Shown: positions 7,919 to 34,737 of the stretch, one piece after another
How positions within the stretch are numbered: the first letter of the stretch is position 1
Layout of the letters: each line of letters begins with the position of its first letter
Virus record (IMG/VR): IMGVR_UViG_3300044627_000601
Span: 1 to 36,993 of that record
Reading direction: 5' to 3' (one strand)
DNA length: 36,993 nucleotides
DNA from: a virus
Notes under the pieces: model-generated
Databases searched by the model: none
Seen by the model: the letters and a program-made list of their open reading frames with translations, nothing else
Told to the model about the DNA's origin: nothing
Translations under genes and position numbers: made by a program

Positions 7919-10900
7919 ATGCCATTTGATCCGGATGCTTACCTACAAACGCCCGTAGCAGAGGCATCTAGCGCGTTTGATCCGGATGCTTATTTAAAAG
8001 CAACTACTCCTGCTGCACCTGCCGCTGTTGTTAAGCCTGCACCTGTTGCTCCTCCTGCCGTTCCTGCCGCTGTTGTTAAGCCCGCACCTGCCGTTCCTGT
8101 TGCCGCCGCTCCTGTTGCTGCTAAGCCTGTGGTTGCTAAAGCAGAGCCAAAAGCAGAGTCAAAAGTTGCGGTTGGGGAAGAAGCTGGTAAAGGCGCACGG
8201 TCTGGGTTCATCGGCCTAAAATCTACATGGGAAGGGCTAAGTGCTTCTAAAGATGTAGCGCAAGTTGCCAATAACCTGCGTATGTTGGACATGTACGACA
8301 AGGTGGACAAGGGCGAGCTAAACAAAATCAAAGTCGCACCCGACGACTTTCTTACGAGTCGTGCACTTAACCGTTATCTATCCGACCCAAAAGGACGTAT
8401 GGCACTGCGGGATCGTGCCGTCAAAGAAGTACAAGATCGTAAAGAATTCCTTAACACTACAATAAAAACGCTCCAGCGCTACCAAGAAGAAAACAAAAAG
8501 AATAAAGGCCGCACAGAAGACATAACCGACGTTGAAGGCGCAAAAGACTTTGCAAATTGGCTGTCGTTTAACTTAGGTTCTGCGTCTGTACAGCTTGTAC
8601 CTATTATTGCCGCAGCGGTTACAACTGGCGGAGCGGGTGTGTTTGCGGTAGGAACTGGTATGGAACTAGGTGGGGGTGTTAATACTCGCATCAATTACAT
8701 ACTTGACCAGACGAAGGGGGAAACCGACCCGCAGAAACGCGCTGATGCTGTAACTAAGTATGTACAAGAATCTGGCGACGTTACCCTAACTGCTGCGTTG
8801 TTATCAGGTGCAGTGGACATGGTATTAGGCCCCGCCGCTGCGTTGCTTAAGCGCCCTTTAACTGCGGTTGTTAGAGAGCAGACCCGGGCGCAGATTGCCA
8901 AACAAGTAGTTAAAGAAACAGGTAAGCAAACACTAGAAGAAGGAATTGCGGGCGGCATTCAAGAAGGTACTCAAATTGGGGCGGCACAAATACTCAAAGA
9001 AGATACGGGTCCCATACTCAGTACCAAAAATGCTAAACGAATTGTAAATGCCGCAGCAGCAGAAGCCGCAGGGGGTTTTGGGTATGGCGCGGGTACAGGT
9101 GCTTATCGTGTTGCCAAAGGGCCGGAAAAAGCCCGCGCTGTACCACCAGCTAAAGTTGAGCCTACGCTGGAACCAAAACCTGCCGCTGCCGCCGCTCCTG
9201 TTACTCCTGTTACTCCTATTACTCCTGTTACACCCGCCGCTCCTATTACTCCTGTTACACCCGCCGCTGCTGTTACGCCTACGCGTGTAGAGCCCACAAT
9301 AGAAGGCGAAATTCCTACCCCTGTTACGCCTACGCGTGTAGAGCCTACGGCGTTTGATCCTGATGCTTATCTAGCAGAAACTGCTACACCTACGCGTGTA
9401 GAACCTACGTTTGATCCTGATGCTTATTTAGCTGAAGCCCCACCAGAAGCAATCGTGCCGTCTGGTCCTTTGGCCGCGATGGAAGCTGCACGTAATGTAG
9501 ACCTTGAAACAACGGCACCACCTGCTGTGCCTTTATCGGCGTTGGAAGCTGCACGTGCACCGGAACTTGAAGCGGAACCTCCTGCACCGGCAGACCCTTT
9601 AGCCGCGATGATAGCTGCACGGACGCCAGAGATTGAAGTAGAACCTCCTGTGCCCGAAGCAGTTGCGTTACCACCAGCCGTACCAGAAGACGTACGTTTT
9701 AGACAGCTTGCCGATGCGTTTGAAGCTCAGGGCGAAATGGCTGACGATGCGGAGATGTTAGCTGCACAGACCATTGCTGATGAGCGTCGTGCGACTATGC
9801 AACAAGTAGCCGCTGCCGATACCACAGGCGCAGCAGAACGCGCACAACTACAAGCGGAGGCATCCGATGTTATTCCCGAGCCACCATCTTACGTCACTGA
9901 GCCTATCGCAGATCAGTACGGCTATGAAGTGCCTAGCGGAACAGAAGGAGCCCCCGGAGGAGTTTCATCAGCTATTGATCGAGGATTGGCTTCTGCTGAG
10001 TCACTGGCTGGACGTTTTGATGTACGAGAAGAGCCTAAGCCTGCTGCAATAACAGCAGTTGATCAAGTAGCTGGGCAGATTCAAACTGCGCTTAACCGTG
10101 ATCCTTATGCCGATGTGGGCTGGGCTGTGGGTGAGCAGTGGATGCAGAACAAACTTGCTGAAGGCTTGCCGCCTGATGAGCATACCGAATCTGTGTTCGA
10201 ACGATTTAATGACCTTGCTGAACGCGGGCATCCGTTCGGTGCTAAACCTGTGCAGCCTAGAGCCGCTGCCCCCACTACCCGCGCAGAGTATATTACCGAA
10301 GTTCGCCGTCAACTGGGAGACTTACAACCCGGCGACGTTCTTGAAAACGACGTGGGGGATATGTGGACGGTTGATGATGTCATCCGAAATAAAACTGGTG
10401 AAATAATTGGCTTTTTACCGCAAGAAGGTAATCCAGAAACCGGTAAAAGAGAAGTACTTGATTTAGATGCTACTGGCTCGATTCTCTTGCCTTCGCCTTA
10501 CACAGATGCGAGTGGCAACCGCAAAATGAGTCAACCCGGCAAGGTCAATCGCGCTAAACAACAGGAGAAACCTAGTGTCGCTAAAACCCCTCAAGCCGTC
10601 GAAACAAAAGAAGAAAGACAAGAAGCACCCGCACCCGCAGTAACTGAACCCGCTCCGCTTGAACTAGAAGCTGCACGGCGTGAAGAACTTGAAGTAGAGC
10701 CACCAGCGATTGCGCAAGTCAAAGCATCAGAAGCTGCAATGACTAAAGCGGGAACGGCACGGCAACGTGCACCCGGTGCTGGACGACCTAAGTCTGAAAC
10801 TGCCAAGACCCCAGAAGATCGTAAAGCTCAGACCGGTGCAATTAATAAGTTTAATCGCGATGTGACGGCGCTTGTTACTGCGGCTGAAAAATATACTCCA

Positions 10901-13900
10901 ATACCGGAAGCTGAACAAGACGGGTCGCAGGAACAAAAACAAAAAGGGCGTACAGGGGCGTACCCAACAGAACAGGAATACGACTACGCTGAAGCAGTAC
11001 GGATACAGAATCTTGAGAAGCTACGCAAAGAGTTATACAAGCTGTCGTTAGTGAAGAGCCCACAGGCGGGCTACATTGCGGCTAAGGCTTATATTCGTGG
11101 GTTAAAACCTGCTGAAGTCGCACGCGCTAAAGCTTTACACGAAGGTGCAGAACTATCTAAGCTCCCAACAAAGCCTCCTGCTACGCTGACTCCACGCCAG
11201 CTAGAACGGTTCCGCAAAGGTGAAACGGCTCCGGCAAGAGGCAGACCTAAAACTGGGGTAGCAGAAAGAGAACTTCCCGCTGGTATATATTGGGCCCCTA
11301 CTGCCGATCTTCGCGCAGCTACTTCGATGACCGAAGAAGAATACGAAGAGTTTTTAAATCCTCCGGTAGAAAAAGAAATCCCTACCGTTACTGTTCGGGA
11401 TACGCTCAAAGCTGAGGGGCTGACTGATAAGCAAATTGACGCTGCTATAAAAGCGACAGAAGAACCACCTGCTGAAGAGAGTGAATCTCGTAACACATTA
11501 AGCGGTGTTGCAGACCCAGCCTATGATAAGTTTGACAACCTGCAAGATGCCTTAGCTCATATTATTCGGACAGGTAGCGACCTAGAGCAACAGCTTGCAG
11601 CGCACTTGCTAGACAAGTCCAACATCGGTGGAATTAAAGATGTTGACTTCGAAGTTGTGCAGAAGAAAGACCGCGCCTCACAAGCCAAGAAGATTTTGGA
11701 TAAGGATGCACGGGGGCTGTACACACTGCACTCTGACGGTTCTGGTAGCGTGCATGTAAGAGGGGACAGCTATGGCGAAGGGCAACGCGGAAACAATGCA
11801 AGAGTTGTACTGCATGAAAGTTTTCATGCTGCAGCCAATCAGAAAATCAATTACGCATTACTTGCAGAAAAGTATGGGGAGAAGGTTGACCCTAACTTAG
11901 CAGATGCAGTTGCGCAGTTGAACGACTTGATGGGACGTGCCAAGGAAGTATACGACGCTAGAGAGGCAGCAGGAGAACTTACGCCTGAGCTAAAAAGCCT
12001 AGACTTCGGCGGCGCGTTTACGAACGTCAAAGAGTTTTATGCCTACGGCATGACTTCGCCCGCAATGCAGTCGTTCTTAATTAACGATGTGCCGGGCACC
12101 AACGCTAAGTCTTCTGGCTTCACGTTGTTTGTTGACATCATAATGAAGCTGTTGCGGATTGACCCTAGCCTACGTTCAGGCATGAAGGATTTGATCCTCA
12201 TCTCGCAGGATATCAGTGCCGCACCTACCCCTAGTTCCGCTGCCGTTGCGCAGATGCTTATCAAGGAGAACCAATCCTTAGTCAGCGCCGCGAAGAACCA
12301 AGAGAAGGAGACGTATCGCGCTCTGGATAAGTTGGCAAAAACCAAGACAGCTTCGGAAACTGTAGAGCAGTTAAGCTCATTGGCAAATGTTGCACGTGAC
12401 CCTAAGCTGTGGGGCGACTACCTCAAGCTGAACTACCGCAACATGGCTACCCCTGCGTATAAAGCCTATCTAGCTACGATGCCAACGGATGTCTTAATAT
12501 CTACCGGCACCGACATGGGCATCGGCGGGCTAAAAGATGTAAATGCTGGCGTGCAAAAAATTGCACAGTTCCGCACCAAGAAGTTAAACGTAGTGCAAGA
12601 AACAGCTACGCCTTGGATTAAGTTGGGGGCAAAAGAAAGTAGTAAGTTAGCCGATGTCATGCACATGGCAACAGACATCCAAGTAGACCCTGCAACTAAC
12701 AAGTCCAACGACAAACTCAATGCGATGTGGAAAGCGTTGACGCCGGAGGCTAAAAAAGTCTACACGTCTGTCCGTGACTTCTACAAGAACAACTACGACT
12801 TGTATCGTGGGCTGCTGAACAAGCGGGTTGAGATGTCCTCTGCTGAGGGTAGCGTTGATGATCCTACTTCGGACAAAGGTAAGCTCGCCGCTGCTGTTCG
12901 TGCAACCTATGAGGCAGGGGCTAAAGTTTCTCCGTACTTCCCGCTGATGCGTTACGGTGACTACTATGTAAGCTTTGGTAAGGGTAAGAACGCCGAGTTC
13001 CAGATGTTTGAAACCGCTGGCTTACGTGATGCTTACGTAGAAGCACGGGTTAAAGAACTTAATGCGTCAGGCGACAAGCGTACGTTTGAGCAGATGATTA
13101 CGGATATGGATGCCGATGTTGGCAACAGTCTGGACAAGCTACGCGATAAAGCGATGGCGTCTAGCCCGATCCTGAAGAACTTGTTCTCGCTCGTTGACAG
13201 CACCACTAACCTTACCGATGAAACTCGTGGAGATATCAAAAATGAGATATTCCAGCTACACCTAGCAACATTGCCAGAAGCTAGCTTCCGCAAACAGTTC
13301 ATTACACGTAAGGGTACTGCGGGTTTTAGCGGCGATGCGTTGCGTAACTTTATTAATTCCGGTACACGGTTTGCAAACCAACTTGCGCGTATCAAGTACG
13401 GCCCTGACATTATGAATGGGGTAGACGCCGCAGACGAGTCGCTTAAGGGTAACCCCGACAAAGCTAAGCTTGGAATGTTAGTTGATGAGGTTCGTATACG
13501 CGCTAAAGCAGAAGTAAGCCCAGACATTACCGATACCTTCGGGGATAAGTTTGCGCGGTTTTCTAACAAGTTTGCATTTACTTGGCTACTTACTTCTGCT
13601 AAGTCCGCTGCCAACCAGATGTTCAGCTTGGCTAACTTTACTGCGCCTACGCTAGCTAAGTACTATGGTTGGGGTGCAGTCGGTGCAGAGATGACGCGGT
13701 TTATGACTGCTGCCCATCAGCAAATTGGCGTGACTAAAGTAGATCGTCAAGGAAATACAAAATTAACTTTACCATCTCTTGCGGCATCTGCGGAAGTACG
13801 TAAAGACCCCGTGTTACGCCGTGCTGCACAAGAAATGATTGACCGTGGGATTAGCACTAACACTCAGACTAACGATCTGTTTATGCGTAAAGGTCAGCCT

Positions 13901-15703
13901 TCGGCAGATTACAACCCGTACACGGCAAACGCTGTACAGGCGATGGGGTTTTTGTTCCACAACGCTGAACGGCTGTCCAGAGAAGTTGCGTTTATGACGG
14001 CGTTCCGTTTAGCCTATAACGCAAATAAAGCTGAGGGTAAGTTAACCGAGGAACAACAGATTAGCGAAGCAATCAACTCCGCAGTAAATATAGCAAATGA
14101 ATCGCTGTTCGATTACTCCACATGGAATACACCACGCACAATGCGCTCAGCGCCAGCGCGAGTAGTTACGCAGTTTTTGAAGTTTCCTTTATTTGCCACT
14201 ATCTACTTAGCGCGTAACTTTGCGCAAATGATTAAGCCTATGGATGGTATGACCCGTCGTGCTTCGGCACGTGCGTTTTTTGGTACGCTGGGTATAACCG
14301 GGTTGATGGCGGGCGTAACAGGGTTGCCGTTCTATAGTGTGATTATGGGTGTGGCGCAGGGTATTAAAAACCTGATGAAAGACGACGACGAAGAAGAAGT
14401 CTTGGAAGAAATGAGTGTTAAGAAGTGGTTTGAAAACATATACCTACCTGACTTCTTTGGGGAAGCTAAGTTTGCAGGGATGAAACTTAGTGAGATTGCT
14501 GCGTCTGGCGTACTCAATGCAGCGTCCGGCTATGACTTTGCTACTGGTATCTCAATGGATTTTTGGCTGAAAGGTGGGAAAGAATCCGCTGGGTGGAAGA
14601 ACGCTTACCAAGACTTTATATTGTCGCATCTTGGCCCCGCAGTGGGTGCGTGGAGTGTTGCCGCTTCGGGCATTGATGACATCGTAAAAGGTGATTACAA
14701 GAAGGGCGCGGAGAAACTTTCCCCTGCTTTCTTCCGTGGGGCTATAACTGCCAGCCGGTATGCAGAAGAAGGTGCGCGTACACCTAGCGGTGACGTTATA
14801 AAAGAAGCGGATGAGTTTACTGAATCGCAGTTAATGATGCAACGCCTTGGGTTTAAAACCACAGGACTTGCACAAGAAGCGTCGGATCGGTTCTACATCA
14901 ACCAGCAGCTTACGAAGATTAAAGATATGCGTAAGAATCTTATCAACCAGCTAGACCATGCTGCGGTGTACGACAACGACGAACAATTCGACAAGGTGCG
15001 GGATAAGATTGATAACTTTAACGACAGGTTCCCTCATTCCGAATCGAAGATTACTTCGGAAGATATTCAGCGTGCCTTAGAAGCAAGAGAGAAACGTCGT
15101 CGTCAGTCTGAACGTGGGTTGTATGTTGAGCGGCCATATCGGGATATTGAGGATGTGCGGGAACGTGGTTTGCGTTTGTTGGATGAGGAAGCAACTAAAC
15201 CTAAGCCGGAACCTAAGCCGGAACCTAAAATGGAGTTTAAGCCTATAGACCCCGCAGTAGACTCGCCGCCACCTGCGAAGGTGTCAGAGTTTAGGCTTAA
15301 CAACGCTATTGAAGAGGAAGGCGCTGCGCATCTAACTCCTGTTATTACTGCGATCTTTAATCAAGAGTCGTCAGGCGGTAAGGATACGCGGACTAGTGTT
15401 GATAACGCACGTGGCCCTATGCAGATTATCCCAAGCACATTCAAGATGTATGCGAAGGAAGGCGAGCGCATTAACGACCCTGCGGACAACATGCGTGTAG
15501 GTGTGCGTTACATTAAAGACATAGCTAGTAAGTATGGGGATGATCCGGCGCGTATTGCTACTGCTTACTTCTCCGGTGAAGGTAATGTCAACAAGGGTAA
15601 GGGCAATGCGTGGAAGCAAGACTATGCGGACGGTAATGGTAAGCGGACATCTGCTTATGCGAGGGATGTTGTAAACCGTATAGAGAAGATGAAGAAGGAG
15701 TAA
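7919..15703 (+). CDS. Giant polyvalent internal virion / ejection protein with HExxH site and C-terminal lytic transglycosylase (2594 aa)
   Basis: Residues 1-30 hold two FDPDAYL motifs, followed by Ala/Pro/Val low complexity to about 80. Hydrophobic stretches lie near 226-250, 291-312 and 2120-2150. Residues 400-520 are Pro/Thr-rich with three TPTRVEPT copies and two more FDPDAYL motifs. A zincin-like HESFH occurs at 1299-1303 (VVLHESFHAA). The long 1500-2150 part resembles the conserved region of large polyvalent phage proteins. Residues 2470-2594 form an SLT-type transglycosylase: catalytic Glu is probably E2483 (NQESSGG), followed by GPMQIIPSTF near 2499-2508 and AYFSGEGN. T7 gp16 is the functional parallel (peptidoglycan opening and DNA passage), but there the transglycosylase is N-terminal. 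The start is ATG after AGGGAAAGAATAAT. The gene ends at a strong hairpin. Confidence 0.85.
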   Translation: MPFDPDAYLQTPVAEASSAFDPDAYLKATTPAAPAAVVKPAPVAPPAVPAAVVKPAPAVPVAAAPVAAKPVVAKAEPKAESKVAVGEEAGKGARSGFIGLKSTWEGLSASKDVAQVANNLRMLDMYDKVDKGELNKIKVAPDDFLTSRALNRYLSDPKGRMALRDRAVKEVQDRKEFLNTTIKTLQRYQEENKKNKGRTEDITDVEGAKDFANWLSFNLGSASVQLVPIIAAAVTTGGAGVFAVGTGMELGGGVNTRINYILDQTKGETDPQKRADAVTKYVQESGDVTLTAALLSGAVDMVLGPAAALLKRPLTAVVREQTRAQIAKQVVKETGKQTLEEGIAGGIQEGTQIGAAQILKEDTGPILSTKNAKRIVNAAAAEAAGGFGYGAGTGAYRVAKGPEKARAVPPAKVEPTLEPKPAAAAAPVTPVTPITPVTPAAPITPVTPAAAVTPTRVEPTIEGEIPTPVTPTRVEPTAFDPDAYLAETATPTRVEPTFDPDAYLAEAPPEAIVPSGPLAAMEAARNVDLETTAPPAVPLSALEAARAPELEAEPPAPADPLAAMIAARTPEIEVEPPVPEAVALPPAVPEDVRFRQLADAFEAQGEMADDAEMLAAQTIADERRATMQQVAAADTTGAAERAQLQAEASDVIPEPPSYVTEPIADQYGYEVPSGTEGAPGGVSSAIDRGLASAESLAGRFDVREEPKPAAITAVDQVAGQIQTALNRDPYADVGWAVGEQWMQNKLAEGLPPDEHTESVFERFNDLAERGHPFGAKPVQPRAAAPTTRAEYITEVRRQLGDLQPGDVLENDVGDMWTVDDVIRNKTGEIIGFLPQEGNPETGKREVLDLDATGSILLPSPYTDASGNRKMSQPGKVNRAKQQEKPSVAKTPQAVETKEERQEAPAPAVTEPAPLELEAARREELEVEPPAIAQVKASEAAMTKAGTARQRAPGAGRPKSETAKTPEDRKAQTGAINKFNRDVTALVTAAEKYTPIPEAEQDGSQEQKQKGRTGAYPTEQEYDYAEAVRIQNLEKLRKELYKLSLVKSPQAGYIAAKAYIRGLKPAEVARAKALHEGAELSKLPTKPPATLTPRQLERFRKGETAPARGRPKTGVAERELPAGIYWAPTADLRAATSMTEEEYEEFLNPPVEKEIPTVTVRDTLKAEGLTDKQIDAAIKATEEPPAEESESRNTLSGVADPAYDKFDNLQDALAHIIRTGSDLEQQLAAHLLDKSNIGGIKDVDFEVVQKKDRASQAKKILDKDARGLYTLHSDGSGSVHVRGDSYGEGQRGNNARVVLHESFHAAANQKINYALLAEKYGEKVDPNLADAVAQLNDLMGRAKEVYDAREAAGELTPELKSLDFGGAFTNVKEFYAYGMTSPAMQSFLINDVPGTNAKSSGFTLFVDIIMKLLRIDPSLRSGMKDLILISQDISAAPTPSSAAVAQMLIKENQSLVSAAKNQEKETYRALDKLAKTKTASETVEQLSSLANVARDPKLWGDYLKLNYRNMATPAYKAYLATMPTDVLISTGTDMGIGGLKDVNAGVQKIAQFRTKKLNVVQETATPWIKLGAKESSKLADVMHMATDIQVDPATNKSNDKLNAMWKALTPEAKKVYTSVRDFYKNNYDLYRGLLNKRVEMSSAEGSVDDPTSDKGKLAAAVRATYEAGAKVSPYFPLMRYGDYYVSFGKGKNAEFQMFETAGLRDAYVEARVKELNASGDKRTFEQMITDMDADVGNSLDKLRDKAMASSPILKNLFSLVDSTTNLTDETRGDIKNEIFQLHLATLPEASFRKQFITRKGTAGFSGDALRNFINSGTRFANQLARIKYGPDIMNGVDAADESLKGNPDKAKLGMLVDEVRIRAKAEVSPDITDTFGDKFARFSNKFAFTWLLTSAKSAANQMFSLANFTAPTLAKYYGWGAVGAEMTRFMTAAHQQIGVTKVDRQGNTKLTLPSLAASAEVRKDPVLRRAAQEMIDRGISTNTQTNDLFMRKGQPSADYNPYTANAVQAMGFLFHNAERLSREVAFMTAFRLAYNANKAEGKLTEEQQISEAINSAVNIANESLFDYSTWNTPRTMRSAPARVVTQFLKFPLFATIYLARNFAQMIKPMDGMTRRASARAFFGTLGITGLMAGVTGLPFYSVIMGVAQGIKNLMKDDDEEEVLEEMSVKKWFENIYLPDFFGEAKFAGMKLSEIAASGVLNAASGYDFATGISMDFWLKGGKESAGWKNAYQDFILSHLGPAVGAWSVAASGIDDIVKGDYKKGAEKLSPAFFRGAITASRYAEEGARTPSGDVIKEADEFTESQLMMQRLGFKTTGLAQEASDRFYINQQLTKIKDMRKNLINQLDHAAVYDNDEQFDKVRDKIDNFNDRFPHSESKITSEDIQRALEAREKRRRQSERGLYVERPYRDIEDVRERGLRLLDEEATKPKPEPKPEPKMEFKPIDPAVDSPPPAKVSEFRLNNAIEEEGAAHLTPVITAIFNQESSGGKDTRTSVDNARGPMQIIPSTFKMYAKEGERINDPADNMRVGVRYIKDIASKYGDDPARIATAYFSGEGNVNKGKGNAWKQDYADGNGKRTSAYARDVVNRIEKMKKE
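9275..9433 (+). repeat. TPTRVEPT / FDPDAYL internal repeat block
   Basis: Within the 2594-aa gene, TPTRVEPT occurs three times. The last two copies are followed by (A)FDPDAYLAE, and the DNA of the two FDPDAYL units is almost the same (TTTGATCCTGATGCTTAT in both). The same motif occurs twice at the protein N-terminus (from 7922 and 7976), so the protein has four FDPDAYL copies, which suggests recurrent binding or assembly motifs. Confidence 0.85.
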
Positions 15704-29217: not shown

Positions 29218-29246
29218 AAGTTATCACGCGAAGTTAACACAGTCAA
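29218..29246 (-). promoter_or_regulatory. Candidate sigma70-like promoter for the small-gene block
   Basis: On the minus strand TTGACT (29241-29246) and TAACTT (29218-29223) are exactly 17 bp apart. The -35 box fits well (5 of 6), the -10 poorly (3 of 6). It lies in the 53-bp gap, the largest in this part of the operon, just before the 29189 start, and its -35 overlaps the end of the 301-aa gene. Confidence 0.45.
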
Positions 29247-30148
29247 GTGTTCAACTTAAAATTATTTGCGTGTTGTATAAACGGTATGAACTCACGATAC
29301 CGATCTACTAATAATGTTCCTGCGGGAACTTCTACCTTATCAAGTACATGTGGGTGCGCAGCTATGAGTAGCTCATCAAAGAAATGTAGCGTAGAAGGTT
29401 TAATCTTAACTAAACGCTCACTTTCGTTGTAGTATCTTTCGGTCGGGCCGGAAAAGGCGAGCCACAAAGCGGGCAAATACCAGTTCCCCTTGTTCTCCCC
29501 TTTAATCATTTCCATAAACGTATCTAACCTATCCCGCCTTGTCTCTACTTTTTCAATCCATGAGTATACGGTTAAGGTGTGATACTTATTCAGAATATGT
29601 TCTCTGTTCTCCTCATCACTTAACATATTCTCGCGTATCAGTAGCATATCCGTGTAGAACTTCTTGAACTCCGCTACCTCTTTACGTACTGCGTTCATTG
29701 CCTTGCGGTTAATCCTATGCACGTGGGTACTCTTAACATTGACGGGTACAAGCCTACCCTCGGGTGTATGGCGTAACTGAAGCGGCCTCTCTAATGAATA
29801 CTGTGCGTGCCCTATGTCCATGATGAGTCGCCTACCTTCTTTACGGCATCGCTCATGCAACACATGGGAGATAAACGTCGCAGTACTAACCGTATGATAC
29901 CCACGTACATCAACGATGATTGACCCATCAGGATAAAATATAATCACATCGGTGCGATACAGGCGGCACTTGATCTCGTCGTGTTCCCCCTTGACAAGCT
30001 GCATCGTTGGCTTGTTCCGATCCCCAAGCGGGCGGATACCTGCGTTGACCCCGCTGCCCTTGATTGGCGGCGTATCGTTGTACCACTCCAATGCTTGCTC
30101 ATAGTTGCGTAGCCTTGTAATACCTCTCCCACTAAGTCCGTAACCCAT
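29243..30148 (-). CDS. Conserved phage protein of unknown function (301 aa)
   Basis: AAGGAGGATGT precedes ATG 30148. The N-terminal half reads as beta strands (CRLYRTDVIIFYPDGSIIVD, then VRGYHTVSTATFISHVL), followed by HRINRKAMNAVRKEVAEF and a long helical part. The YHT-(S/T)xxFI and HRINRKA phrases recur in a phage family that lies near DUF3150/MoxR/VWA genes, so it may act in the same process. No catalytic motif is obvious. Function unknown. Confidence 0.75.
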   Translation of the reverse strand: MGYGLSGRGITRLRNYEQALEWYNDTPPIKGSGVNAGIRPLGDRNKPTMQLVKGEHDEIKCRLYRTDVIIFYPDGSIIVDVRGYHTVSTATFISHVLHERCRKEGRRLIMDIGHAQYSLERPLQLRHTPEGRLVPVNVKSTHVHRINRKAMNAVRKEVAEFKKFYTDMLLIRENMLSDEENREHILNKYHTLTVYSWIEKVETRRDRLDTFMEMIKGENKGNWYLPALWLAFSGPTERYYNESERLVKIKPSTLHFFDELLIAAHPHVLDKVEVPAGTLLVDRYREFIPFIQHANNFKLNT

Positions 30149-30894: not shown

Positions 30895-31752
30895 TTACCA
30901 ATCAAACTTCTCAAGGATTGCATCTACCTTCGTCTTCACCTCGCTACGCACTTGCTCGTACTCCTTGATGTCATCGATGTCTACACCTATCAAGGCACGC
31001 TCAAGTGAACGTCGTGCTTCTTCTAACTTCGGGTCATTCGTTACGTTCAGCTTAGTAAGCAGAGCGCATAAGTTCTGTGGGTTATCGATCAGGCTGTCGT
31101 GGTAGCGTTTCTTCTTCTCGTCATCCCCTTCACGCTCCGTCAGCTTCTCGCTTAGTCCTGTCAACTCCTCATACAGCCGGTCCCACGGTTCACGCACAGC
31201 CTTAGCTAAGCGGCTATTGAAGTCAGACTCATAGCTCTCTGCAAGTTCCCGCAAGTCCTCGTTCGCTACGTCTAAGCGAAAGTCACCAGCCTCGGGCAGC
31301 GGACTGAACACCACATGCACTGAGTACTTAGTCATTACATCATCGAGCGATGGGTAGTCGCTGTACTTGTACATACCCTTGAGATTGTTCTGCGCTTGCT
31401 GCACCACGTTGGCATACTCGGCGTAGAACTTATTGCACATACTCTCGTAGGTTGTACGCATCGTGTTGATCTGTGTCTTGTACTCCAGCATCATCGATGT
31501 CGGTAACAGGCGTGCACCCTTACTAGCCCACGGTAGCGTCGCCGTGTTGTGATACAGCCTGATGCGTGCTGCGTACTTGGACAAGTCACTGACTAGCGAC
31601 GTACCTGCAACGAGATTCTTATAGACCTTGCTTGCGTCTGCCGATGCGTTGTTGTTAGCGTTGACTGCGTCGGTCACGCCACGATCTAACTTGCTAGCCC
31701 CCCAAGCAGATACGTTTAACTCTACCAATACTGCGCTACTAGATATACCCAT
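30895..31752 (-). CDS. DUF3150-type protein, partner of MoxR/VWA genes
   Basis: 285 aa. It begins GISSSAVLVELNVSAWGASK, continues with LPWASKGARLLPTSMM, YPSLDDVMTKYSVHVVFSPL, and ends in SLIDNPQNLCALLTKLNV plus a charged helix, the pattern of DUF3150 proteins in phages and mobile elements. It is mostly helical and probably coiled coil, with no catalytic motif. It is encoded just downstream of the MoxR ATPase, zincin-VWA and 84-aa genes, and such proteins repeatedly sit with MoxR/VWA pairs, so it may be their substrate-binding partner or a structural component. The leader shares a 19-bp sequence with that of the DUF3310 gene. Confidence 0.8.
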   Translation of the reverse strand: MGISSSAVLVELNVSAWGASKLDRGVTDAVNANNNASADASKVYKNLVAGTSLVSDLSKYAARIRLYHNTATLPWASKGARLLPTSMMLEYKTQINTMRTTYESMCNKFYAEYANVVQQAQNNLKGMYKYSDYPSLDDVMTKYSVHVVFSPLPEAGDFRLDVANEDLRELAESYESDFNSRLAKAVREPWDRLYEELTGLSEKLTEREGDDEKKKRYHDSLIDNPQNLCALLTKLNVTNDPKLEEARRSLERALIGVDIDDIKEYEQVRSEVKTKVDAILEKFDW

Positions 31753-31777
31753 GTCATTCTCCTTGTGGTTGTTGTGA

Positions 31778-32032
31778 TTACTCTGGCTTGCCTGCTAACT
31801 TGTACATGTTGTACATGTCGTCGCTGAGATACTTGAGCCCGATACTTGAGTCACCTTGCGATTGCGGGTAGATGTGATACGTCGTGTAGCTCTCCCGTCC
31901 TGTTAACTCATCCTTACTATTCCACTTATCCTCGTACTGCTCTGCCTTAGCTAGTATGTCTAGCACCTTCATTGCGTCACCACCATCGAGCACATAGTTT
32001 CTATACCCTACTGATACGATTACCTTTGCCAT
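31778..32032 (-). CDS. 84-aa protein inside the MoxR/VWA cluster
   Basis: ATG 32032, chosen for AGGAGATAAGAAC upstream; the open frame to 32329 is antisense-type sequence within the VWA gene and is rejected. It reads MAKVIVSVGYRNYVLDGGDA, then KVLDILAKAEQYEDKW, then YHIYPQSQGDSSIGLKYLSD: strand-loop-helix-strand, a small alpha/beta fold. It sits five bases after the VWA gene stop, so it is probably co-made with that complex. No family recognised. Confidence 0.7.
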   Translation of the reverse strand: MAKVIVSVGYRNYVLDGGDAMKVLDILAKAEQYEDKWNSKDELTGRESYTTYHIYPQSQGDSSIGLKYLSDDMYNMYKLAGKPE

Positions 32033-32036
32033 GTTC

Positions 32037-33227
32037 TTATCTCCTAATGTGAATAGTTTTTCCATTCGGTGCAATTGCTGTATTACCACCGCATACGACC
32101 CAAAGTACCGGCACCTCCCAATCCGTACCCCAATCGGAACCCACGTATCCGTCCGTAAGTACCACCACACACTCCGGCTTAAGGCTGTGCTCCTTGAGAT
32201 AAGCAGTGATACAGCTTGGACTTGTACCCCCACCACCTTTCGGCTTAGTCGAACTAACGATGTCTGCCACGTTGCCGCTGTCGTATGTCTCATGCCCTGC
32301 CACCTCGCTGTCCCAGTAGAGCAGGTCAACCTTCTCGGGCGTCACCTCCTCTGCTATGCCTTTAACTTCAGTAAGGAACTCGTTTAACTCCTTGCCCGCG
32401 ATGGACCCAGATGTATCTACTGCGACTACTAGGTGTCCAACCCGCTCGCTGACTAGCGTAGGCATATAGATGTCGTTGCCGATGAACCGTCGATTGACTC
32501 GCCGCCATGATGATGCGTCCTTCCCCGAACAGATTGATTTCACATACTCGCGTAGCTGCTCACGCCAGTTAACTTGTGGTGCAAGCATCTCGCCAAGCTC
32601 ACGCCCTAGCCCACCCGCCCCGTTGCCCTTGACCTTGCGCTGTGTCATGTCTCCCTGCCGCAGTGCTTGCTCTACCTCTTTGCTTAGCTCCTTCTGCTCC
32701 TCCTCACTAAGCTCACCCGCACCACCCCAATCATGCTCGTCGAACCCTTCTTCGCCTCCCCCACCGTCCTCGCCATGCTCCTCAAGCAATGCGTCGTACA
32801 CCTCCTTGGTAGTCATACCGCGATACTTCTCATCGATAAGCCCGATGACCTTGCCGTCACGTCTAGGCATAACCATCACGCGACCGTGTGGGTCTAGGTC
32901 TTTGAGTTGCAGGTTAATTACGTAGTCACAAGCCGCGTTGGCTAGCTGCGGTGTCGCGTCGTATAGCTTGCGCCATGTCGTAAGATGCCGATATGCTTTG
33001 TGCATGGCTTCGTGCAAAACAACGAATGCCAGTTCTTTCTCCGACAACTCGGCTACGAACTTGCGACCATACCGCTCGTCGCGCCCGTTGGTACATGCAG
33101 TTGCCACGTTGTCATCGATGTAGGTCTTGCCCACCATCATGATGCCCGACCACAATGCGAAGTCAGGGTCACGCATGATGTTGATCTTGACCTTCTTAAG
33201 CTTACGTTCTTCCTTGTCTATATCCAT
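32037..33227 (-). CDS. Zincin-like metallopeptidase / VWA domain protein (DUF2201 type)
   Basis: 396 aa. The N-terminal zincin-like domain has HEAMH at 72-76 (FVVLHEAMHKA) and ANAACDYVIN at 96-105, whose Asp101 fits the third metal ligand of this family. An acidic Gly/Glu linker covers 145-190. The C-terminal VWA domain carries a full metal-ion-dependent site: DTSGS at 271-275, the Thr of GGGGTSPS near 335, and TDG at 358-360. This is the DUF2201-like architecture that pairs with MoxR ATPases, as CobT does with CobS. It lies eight bases after the MoxR gene stop. Its role is probably protein remodelling or activation; the protease activity is predicted only. Confidence 0.88.
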   Translation of the reverse strand: MDIDKEERKLKKVKINIMRDPDFALWSGIMMVGKTYIDDNVATACTNGRDERYGRKFVAELSEKELAFVVLHEAMHKAYRHLTTWRKLYDATPQLANAACDYVINLQLKDLDPHGRVMVMPRRDGKVIGLIDEKYRGMTTKEVYDALLEEHGEDGGGGEEGFDEHDWGGAGELSEEEQKELSKEVEQALRQGDMTQRKVKGNGAGGLGRELGEMLAPQVNWREQLREYVKSICSGKDASSWRRVNRRFIGNDIYMPTLVSERVGHLVVAVDTSGSIAGKELNEFLTEVKGIAEEVTPEKVDLLYWDSEVAGHETYDSGNVADIVSSTKPKGGGGTSPSCITAYLKEHSLKPECVVVLTDGYVGSDWGTDWEVPVLWVVCGGNTAIAPNGKTIHIRR

Positions 33228-33235
33228 ACTGCCTC

Positions 33236-34306
33236 CTATAAAAGATCATTGTTTTTAGCTACCCATGCACTGAACTTCCTGCACCCGAACGCCACCACCT
33301 GCTTGCTCTTACTCTTGGCGATGTTGATGCAGAACGCCGCTTGCCACTCGGGCTCGAACCGCTCAAGGTACGTCATGAACGCATCGATAGTGTCCTTCTC
33401 TACGCGCTGTATCGCACCGAACACGACGATTGCACAAGCACCTGCACTGGTAGGTACAAGCGCACCGAGCGGGTTGGCGATGGTCTGTTGCCACGTCGGT
33501 AACTGATTGGAATAGTCGAGATACGCTGAGAAGTCCTTAGCTGCTGCCTCACCGATAGCACCTGTCAGTGATGCAATCAGGCTCTCTTGGTCGAACATGT
33601 GACGCATACGCACTACATTGCTGGCACGCTCAAGACTTCTCGGCGTCACGCATGGCATTGTTGCTCGATGGGGCTGATAGATATACGGGTTCTCTTTCTG
33701 GCTCGGGTCGGTGTAGCTAGCGAATATCTGTGGGAACTGCCGAGCGAACGCAAGTATCTCAGGCACGATGCCGTTATCCATCGCCCACTCAGCCCACTCG
33801 TCGAACGTCGGCTTACGCACAGTCAGCGGGATGATGCGGTTCAGGGTGTGCCCCTTCATGCTGTCGCCTACGCCGTCTGTGGACAGGTTGCCTGTCATAA
33901 AGATATAGCTGTCCTTGTGTACCGGCACGTCGCCGAGTCTGGGATTGTGTGCCTCAAGCAGCGGATGCAACATGTTCTTTACAGGGTCGGGGCCCTTGCT
34001 AAACTCGTCAAGCATTACGATGACCGGCTCGCCTGTGTGGAACATGAACCTAGCGTTGGGGTAGTACCGCGTGACTTTGTGCTCATGGTCAATCGCAGGC
34101 ATACAAATGTCGCCTAAGTCCATGCTAGGTACGTCCATGTATGCCATGTGGTGCTTGGGTAGCGCTGCTTTGAGCAGTCGCATGATGCTTGACTTACCGA
34201 TACCGGGCTCGCCGCGTAGCCCGTACCGATTCTCTGGGTTTGCAAGGATTAGCTGCATCGCTTGCTTTAACGACACGCTTATGTCGAAGTTCAATTCATT
34301 TGCCAT
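33236..34306 (-). CDS. MoxR-type AAA+ ATPase
   Basis: 356 aa; AAGGAG upstream of ATG 34306. Walker A GEPGIGKS at 32-39, Walker B VIVMLDEF at 95-102, sensor 1 FMTGN at 136-140 and an Asn-Arg pair (TLNRI) at 154-158 fit the arginine-finger region, so ATP hydrolysis is likely intact. The conserved segment MDVPSMDLGDICMPA and the pore-like FMFHTGEP fit the MoxR/CobS clade. These ATPases act as ring chaperones that deliver work to a VWA partner, here the next gene. It is the first protein of the DUF3150 cluster and follows a 26-aa membrane peptide gene. Confidence 0.88.
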   Translation of the reverse strand: MANELNFDISVSLKQAMQLILANPENRYGLRGEPGIGKSSIMRLLKAALPKHHMAYMDVPSMDLGDICMPAIDHEHKVTRYYPNARFMFHTGEPVIVMLDEFSKGPDPVKNMLHPLLEAHNPRLGDVPVHKDSYIFMTGNLSTDGVGDSMKGHTLNRIIPLTVRKPTFDEWAEWAMDNGIVPEILAFARQFPQIFASYTDPSQKENPYIYQPHRATMPCVTPRSLERASNVVRMRHMFDQESLIASLTGAIGEAAAKDFSAYLDYSNQLPTWQQTIANPLGALVPTSAGACAIVVFGAIQRVEKDTIDAFMTYLERFEPEWQAAFCINIAKSKSKQVVAFGCRKFSAWVAKNNDLL

Positions 34307-34321
34307 GTGTTACTCCTTTAG

Positions 34322-34402
34322 TTAGATAAACCCAAGCCCTGCTGCTATCAATGCACCTAGCGTTACTGCTACGCACACCGCCATTACTACTCTGTCGATC
34401 AT
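34322..34402 (-). CDS. 26-aa single-span membrane peptide
   Basis: ATG 34402 overlaps the stop of the NinX-like gene (ATGA) and follows a very strong GGAGGAGTTGAA ribosome site. The product MIDRVVMAVCVAVTLGALIA plus AGLGFI is nearly all hydrophobic with a short polar N-terminus, a single membrane helix. It ends 15 bases before the MoxR ATPase start, so it may anchor or regulate that system, or be an unrelated membrane peptide. Confidence 0.6.
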   Translation of the reverse strand: MIDRVVMAVCVAVTLGALIAAGLGFI

Positions 34403-34737
34403 TTCAACTCCTCCGGTAGTTGTACTTCGTTACCCAAACAGCTTGCTACATAGCAGCGCATGGCTGCTTCGAGTGGTGTCGCCCCGCCTTCTACGTACAG
34501 GCAATTGGGGTGATTCGCTTCCCACCTACCCGCATCCACACCCCACGTACCGTCACCGTAGTGCAATCCCATCTTCTCGCGCTCAATGATTGCACCTGCC
34601 AATGCCCAATCGTCGTGATACATAAGCGGGTTGCTAAACTCGTCAACGACCACGCCTTGCCATATTGCACACGTTACCCCTTCGGCTTCCGCAACTGCCC
34701 AATCAAGGGCAGCGCCGCTTAACTCTTTTGTTTTCAT
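34399..34737 (-). CDS. DUF2591 protein, NinX-like
   Basis: 112 aa matching the DUF2591/NinX pattern: KTKELSGAALDWAVAEAEG at the start, then WALAGAIIEREKMGL, GRWEA, and TPLEAAMRCYVASCLGNEV near the C-terminus. The family occurs in lambdoid and other phages and has no established function. The start ATG 34737 is in an ATGA overlap with the first gene of the arm, with GGGAGGAATTGCA upstream. Length is typical and no part appears missing. Confidence 0.9.
   Translation of the reverse strand: MKTKELSGAALDWAVAEAEGVTCAIWQGVVVDEFSNPLMYHDDWALAGAIIEREKMGLHYGDGTWGVDAGRWEANHPNCLYVEGGATPLEAAMRCYVASCLGNEVQLPEELK

Follow-up and report, generated by a model that had tools for sequence, protein, structure and literature searches.

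The pairing of an AAA+ ATPase with a zincin-VWA protein is already known from N4-like phages and from jumbo phages. In the N4-like phages the two proteins are gp24 and gp25, encoded by core and middle genes, and gp25 has a vWFA domain (PMC4193335). In group 2.2 jumbo phages a MoxR ATPase is paired with a metallopeptidase-vWA protein, and a role in virion assembly or processing was proposed for them in 2021 by analogy with p618 and p892 of Acidianus two-tailed virus (PMC7824862). MoxR and VWA genes of the plasmid pCAR1 are conserved in R478, Rts1, SXT and R391, and a part in conjugative transfer has been suggested for them in a paper where the number of the middle gene does not appear (PMC2642839). 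In NorQD and related systems, MoxR forms a hexamer whose pore is entered by a finger of the VWA protein, and the metal ion-dependent adhesion site (MIDAS) attaches to an acidic patch on the client, which is put under strain by ATP hydrolysis (PMC9976466, PMC13036017). Here we describe a locus in a 36,993-base virus record (IMGVR_UViG_3300044627_000601, positions 1 to 36,993; hereafter, the window), in which an AAA+ ATPase and a zincin-VWA protein are encoded together with a DUF3150-like protein. This third partner is what goes beyond the pair already known; in the literature searched, a phage-plasmid trio with DUF3150 has not been described as such, and the word DUF3150 was not found.

The operon and its proteins

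The locus is a minus-strand operon in which the genes are transcribed in the order AAA+ ATPase (356 amino acids, 33236..34306), zincin-VWA protein (396 amino acids, 32037..33227), an open reading frame (ORF) of 84 amino acids (31778..32032) and DUF3150-like protein (285 amino acids, 30895..31752). The intergenic gaps are, in the same order, 8, 4 and 25 nt, and an AGGAG-type ribosome-binding site is found upstream of each of the four starts. The original prediction, a note made from the sequence of the window, had described these genes as a MoxR ATPase/zincin-VWA/DUF3150 cluster, and its coordinates, strands, gene order and intervening 84-amino-acid ORF all hold on recheck.

The AAA+ protein, of the MoxR/midasin-like clade and similar to N4 gp24, matches PF07728 (AAA_5) with 31.1 bits, above the curated cut-off of 22, belongs to phrog_1297 (E 1.2e-43), and has midasin as its best PDB profile match (2.9e-38). 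Its Walker A motif (GEPGIGKS, residues 32-39, 34190..34213, minus strand) shows no change at G32, G35, G37 and K38 across 66 sequences, and the Walker B residues D100/E101, the sensor-1 residue N140, and R157 and R223 are likewise intact and invariant in the 66 AAA+ homologs. An arginine-finger candidate and sensor 2 are intact in addition to the Walker A, Walker B and sensor-1 motifs. Five of these residues (K38, D100, N140, R157 and R223) are kept also across other phages and plasmids, so that the intact motifs noticed originally turn out to be invariant across divergent relatives. The adjoining VWA gene, a trait of the MoxR clade, is present as well, both by the 8-nt gap and by co-occurrence.

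The zincin-VWA protein, similar to N4 gp25 and a member of phrog_1314 (E 1e-91), combines an N-terminal DUF2201_N metallopeptidase domain (PF13203, 96.6 bits against a cut-off of 23.2, 2.6e-27) with a C-terminal VWA domain (PF09967, VWA-like, 71.6 bits against a cut-off of 26.4, 8e-20). The HEAMH zinc-binding motif (residues 72-76, 33000..33014, minus strand) and the MIDAS motif DTSGS (residues 271-275, 32403..32417, minus strand) had both been noticed originally, the latter as part of a full VWA metal site; both are present, and H72, E73 and H76, as well as D271, S273, S275, T335 and D359, show no variation among 73 close relatives. In a broader alignment of 26 sequences, which includes Schitoviridae, jumbo-phage, Vequintavirus, Rhizobium and cyanophage proteins, the HExxH motif, H81, N97, D101 and N105 remain invariant and the N97-x-A99-x-D101 arrangement is kept, while the DUF2201 proteins of plasmids have HExxHxxxxH plus NxAxDxxxN in 10 out of 11 cases. 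From this conservation, the third zinc ligand is probably H81 or D101. The AlphaFold model of the protein (mean pLDDT 79, pTM 0.54) matches VWA domains, and its top-ranking fold matches include MIDAS domains from MDN1 and Rea1; no zincin fold appears among the matches listed for this model, so that the zincin assignment rests on the Pfam and motif evidence. The PHROG label of phrog_1314 is HNH endonuclease, which we reject because Pfam detects no HNH domain in the protein; what it does detect is a metallopeptidase domain followed by a VWA domain. The same label is repeated in many phage records and constitutes a propagated misannotation.

Assignment of the third protein to DUF3150, which formed part of the original prediction, could not be demonstrated on the window protein taken alone but stands when its family is considered. 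PF11348 was not matched at E <= 0.1 either by this protein or in the DNA of the window, but it was matched by 13 of 24 aligned homologs (best 5.3e-6), and a profile of the phage proteins aligned with canonical DUF3150 proteins in hhalign with a probability of 97% (E 7.6e-11). Phage and plasmid DUF3150 proteins align along their entire length (hhalign, E 8.6e-60), and a single plasmid protein matches the phage profile with an E of 1.5e-33. We use the name DUF3150-like since the window protein lies below the Pfam cut-off and its homology is given by the family profile, and the protein would represent a divergent branch of DUF3150. It is predicted to be largely helical (AlphaFold, mean pLDDT 79). 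A fold search of the model against the PDB rendered no match at E <= 0.001, so that the fold gives no hint of function, and among viral models it matched only other DUF3150-like or unnamed phage proteins.

Distribution in phages, plasmids and integrative elements

Two scans of IMG/VR were carried out, one seeded with the VWA protein (80 loci) and the other with the DUF3150-like protein (at least 585 relatives); the seeds differ, yet some contigs are common to both, and the samples are therefore not fully independent. Among the VWA-seeded loci, the AAA+ gene was found in 76/80 and the DUF3150-like gene in 73/80, several of the misses being on cut contigs. All 35 new DUF3150-seeded loci with at least 5 kb of upstream sequence contained both the AAA+ and the VWA genes, and in all 53 DUF3150-seeded loci with the three genes these lie on one strand. 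The co-occurrence suggested as a check in the original prediction is thus found in both scans, clearly contrary to the lack of co-occurrence that would have spoken against it, and the trio can be regarded as a single conserved unit of the MoxR-VWA remodelling type. Their order is AAA+/VWA/DUF3150 in the clade of the window and AAA+/DUF3150/VWA in cyanophage MinM2 and in plasmids, so that the trio keeps together although its internal order varies with the lineage. The 84-amino-acid ORF is accessory: its homologs, found in 39/80 loci, all belong to the nearer clade and are located only between the VWA and DUF3150 genes. Within phages, the tree distances of the three proteins are correlated (0.87-0.95), which carries little weight because common genome ancestry alone would yield such values.

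A tblastn search over phage records detected the VWA protein in 639 of them and the AAA+ protein in 207. In this collection the DUF3150-like partner was detected in just three phages (MinM2, Pag-Yong1 and Pra-JY27), with identical or almost identical copies. In phage LIT1 the pair is represented by N4 gp24-like and gp25-like proteins, homologous to ours (phrog_1297 and phrog_1314) and encoded by neighbouring genes close to replication genes, but no DUF3150 homolog was detected beside it. Both domain architectures of the group 2.2 jumbo pair are identical to those of the window proteins, and the two genes of phage GAP32 are adjacent, but no DUF3150 partner was found there. A profile comparison of the neighbours of the pair in LIT1, FV3, GAP32 and RHph_TM29 rendered no DUF3150 equivalent. 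In Escherichia phage FV3, the AAA+ homolog is encoded separately, on the other strand, and the VWA gene is preceded by a gene for a 329-amino-acid protein (L086, 5040-6029) labelled HNH endonuclease / anti-sigma factor, in which Pfam finds nothing.

The original prediction had treated the cluster as a purely phage puzzle, a view that is not supported because the trio is also present on conjugative plasmids. A search with the DUF3150 protein of MinM2 detected 42 plasmid records, 11 of which were inspected, and 10 of these carry the AAA+, DUF3150 and zincin-VWA genes, nearly always consecutive and in that order. Several of the trio-bearing plasmids are typed as conjugative, and in five of them the trio adjoins genes of a VirB-type type IV secretion system. 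In the trees of the three proteins, MinM2 groups with a Rhodovastum plasmid (support of 0.97 for AAA+, 0.76 for VWA and 0.98 for DUF3150), which is consistent with exchange of the trio as a unit between phages and plasmids.

Canonical DUF3150 is found on 1118 plasmids, 969 of them conjugative. Three were inspected, namely pCAR1, one plasmid from Citrobacter and one of the IncC group, and each has MoxR and VWA genes close by. In pCAR1 and the Citrobacter plasmid the DUF3150 gene lies between the MoxR and VWA genes, and in the IncC plasmid a gene for a 302-amino-acid protein together with ssb, bet and exonuclease genes is located between those for AAA+ and DUF3150. Genes of the ssb, recT/bet and lambda-type exonuclease kinds are thus near the trio in both the Citrobacter and the IncC plasmids. 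The VWA proteins of this group also carry an N-terminal HExxH motif. The consecutive ORF101-ORF102-ORF103 of pCAR1, with relatives on IncC, IncT and IncH plasmids and SXT/R391 elements, resemble our locus in composition (MoxR AAA+, DUF3150 and HExxH-VWA), but differ from it by a larger VWA protein of the CobT/NorD kind (604 amino acids), by a CbbQ_C domain on the AAA+ protein, and by an only remote similarity to the phage proteins.

Proposed function and alternatives

The unit has conserved active sites and tight linkage, and it is present in phages and conjugative plasmids. The explanation that we favour, with moderate confidence, is that the three proteins form a remodelling machine of mobile elements, which would act early on a complex of incoming or replicating DNA rather than as a dedicated device for virion maturation. 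By analogy with the studied systems, the AAA+ protein would form a MoxR-type ring that consumes ATP, the VWA protein would dock on the ring and grip an acidic patch of the client through the MIDAS metal, and the client would be pulled or strained by the ring. Because a zincin with intact motifs is fused to the VWA domain, cutting may follow pulling, and this putative peptidase could cleave either the client or the DUF3150 protein under strain. The latter, being strictly linked to the pair, is the best candidate for a dedicated adaptor or a primary client that gives specificity, although this is a guess. As judged from the neighbourhood only, the machine might work early inside the infected or recipient cell, and its client might be a host nucleoprotein, a defence complex or a recombination complex of the element itself. 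The strand of the window that carries the trio also carries genes for DNA polymerase A, a DUF927 primase/helicase, an SNF2 helicase, an exonuclease and a Holliday-junction resolvase, which, together with the single-strand-annealing recombination genes that adjoin the trio on some plasmids, suggests a role in DNA establishment or processing. A wider possibility, put forward only tentatively, is that tailed phages and conjugative elements, including common plasmid families, share one transferable establishment machine, an ATP-driven protease-remodeller that would prepare the DNA-handling or defence proteins of the entered cell for the incoming genome and in which DUF3150 would be the subunit dedicated to specificity.

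Several observations weigh against this explanation. The pair is found without a detectable DUF3150 gene in N4-like phages, Vequintavirus, jumbo phages, phage S-TIM66 and plasmid pSYSA, as well as in one further locus with ample flank (L081); since many phages and pSYSA carry the pair alone, DUF3150 is not needed by every pair. Conversely, a Manganitrophus plasmid has DUF3150 without the MoxR/VWA pair, one plasmid VWA protein (L104) lacks HExxH, the link with ssb, recT and exonuclease genes was not seen in Burkholderiales plasmids, and the similarity between the phage zincin and the N-terminus of the pCAR1/IncC VWA proteins is weak at the profile level (31%, E 5e-4). In roseophages, moreover, some conserved virion genes are near the gp24/gp25 homologs (PMC4193335). 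On pSYSA of Synechocystis PCC 6803 (pSYSA_M), the MoxR gene overlaps that for zincin-VWA by a few bases, and DUF3150 is absent from the vicinity. In the Manganitrophus plasmid DUF3150 lies instead beside a different AAA ATPase, DUF1257 and DUF2997, perhaps a separate use of this protein.

The roseophage arrangement would fit a function in virion assembly or maturation, in which the pair chaperones the assembly of tail or capsid and the zincin processes structural proteins, as do the proposal made for the homologous jumbo-phage pair by analogy with p618/p892 (PMC7824862) and the presence of the VWA gene in hundreds of phage records. We consider this explanation unlikely, since the same trio is carried by conjugative plasmids, which form no virions, since gp24/gp25 of N4 belong to the middle genes, and since in the window the trio is beside replication genes on the strand opposite to the structural genes. 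The fact that the three families travel together on conjugative plasmids makes it improbable that the machine serves virus-particle assembly only. Alternatively, the target of the trio could be a host defence or nucleoid complex, which it would take apart or cleave; phages and conjugative elements would share such a need. The occurrence of the trio in both, the intact peptidase signature and the existence of conflict systems with MoxR, VWA and peptidase components (PMC7159879, PMC12839542) point in this direction. In the MoxR-vWA ternary systems there is also a third protein (PMC7159879), but that of the window is DUF3150-like and not VMAP, iSTAND, FtsH or a beta-propeller. PADLOC, which covers defence and not counter-defence, matched none of the trio and gave only a negligible DndE match to a 301-amino-acid protein encoded nearby. 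The wide conservation of the pair as core genes in N4-like phages suits a housekeeping function of the element more than an anti-defence gene of patchy occurrence, and we regard host takeover or counter-defence as no more probable than a virion function.

Less probable still is the activation of a metal centre, in which a phage or host enzyme would be loaded with a metal in the manner of NorQD, CoxDE or CobST. NorQD represents the closest studied mechanism, and in pCAR1 the VWA partner is annotated as NorD and the AAA+ protein has a CbbQ_C domain. However, none of these machines is known to need an intact HExxH peptidase site, and no large chelatase subunit of the CobN/ChlH kind and no metalloenzyme client was recognised among the proteins scanned in the window, which is probably only part of a genome. 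More generally, NorQ/NorD, RavA/ViaA and midasin share with our locus a MoxR-clade ring and a VWA domain with MIDAS, in agreement with the midasin and MDN1/Rea1 matches, but a DUF3150 partner is absent from the published descriptions consulted, and the window encodes none of their clients.

The early remodelling machine that we favour joins gp24/gp25, which are core in N4-like phages, and DUF3150, present on more than a thousand plasmids that are mostly conjugative, as one gene set. This linkage tells the phage and plasmid fields where to look and speaks against virion maturation alone, and phage N4 in E. coli K-12 and pCAR1 in P. putida KT2440 offer tractable models.

Other genes of the window

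The longest related contigs are of ca. 60-67 kb, so that the window, at 36,993 bases, is probably a fragment of a larger genome. The 301-amino-acid protein mentioned above (29243..30148, minus strand) is a possible fourth member of the unit, of uncertain membership: a hidden Markov model match was found near the trio in 66/80 loci, and in distant clades its gene is directly before that for AAA+, while no profile match was detected in LIT1 or MinM2. The 2594-amino-acid protein (7919-15703), which the original prediction had put forward as a candidate client, contains an LPD39 domain as well as a transglycosylase domain at its C-terminus, and is similar to a DarB-like PHROG; it is a large polyvalent protein, likely injected or virion-borne. 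Its role as client is not supported, because its gene shares the opposite strand with the structural genes, while the trio is in the replication unit and is found also on conjugative plasmids, which lack virions. Just upstream of the AAA+ gene, at 34399-34737, a NinX-like protein is encoded (PF10765, 59 bits).

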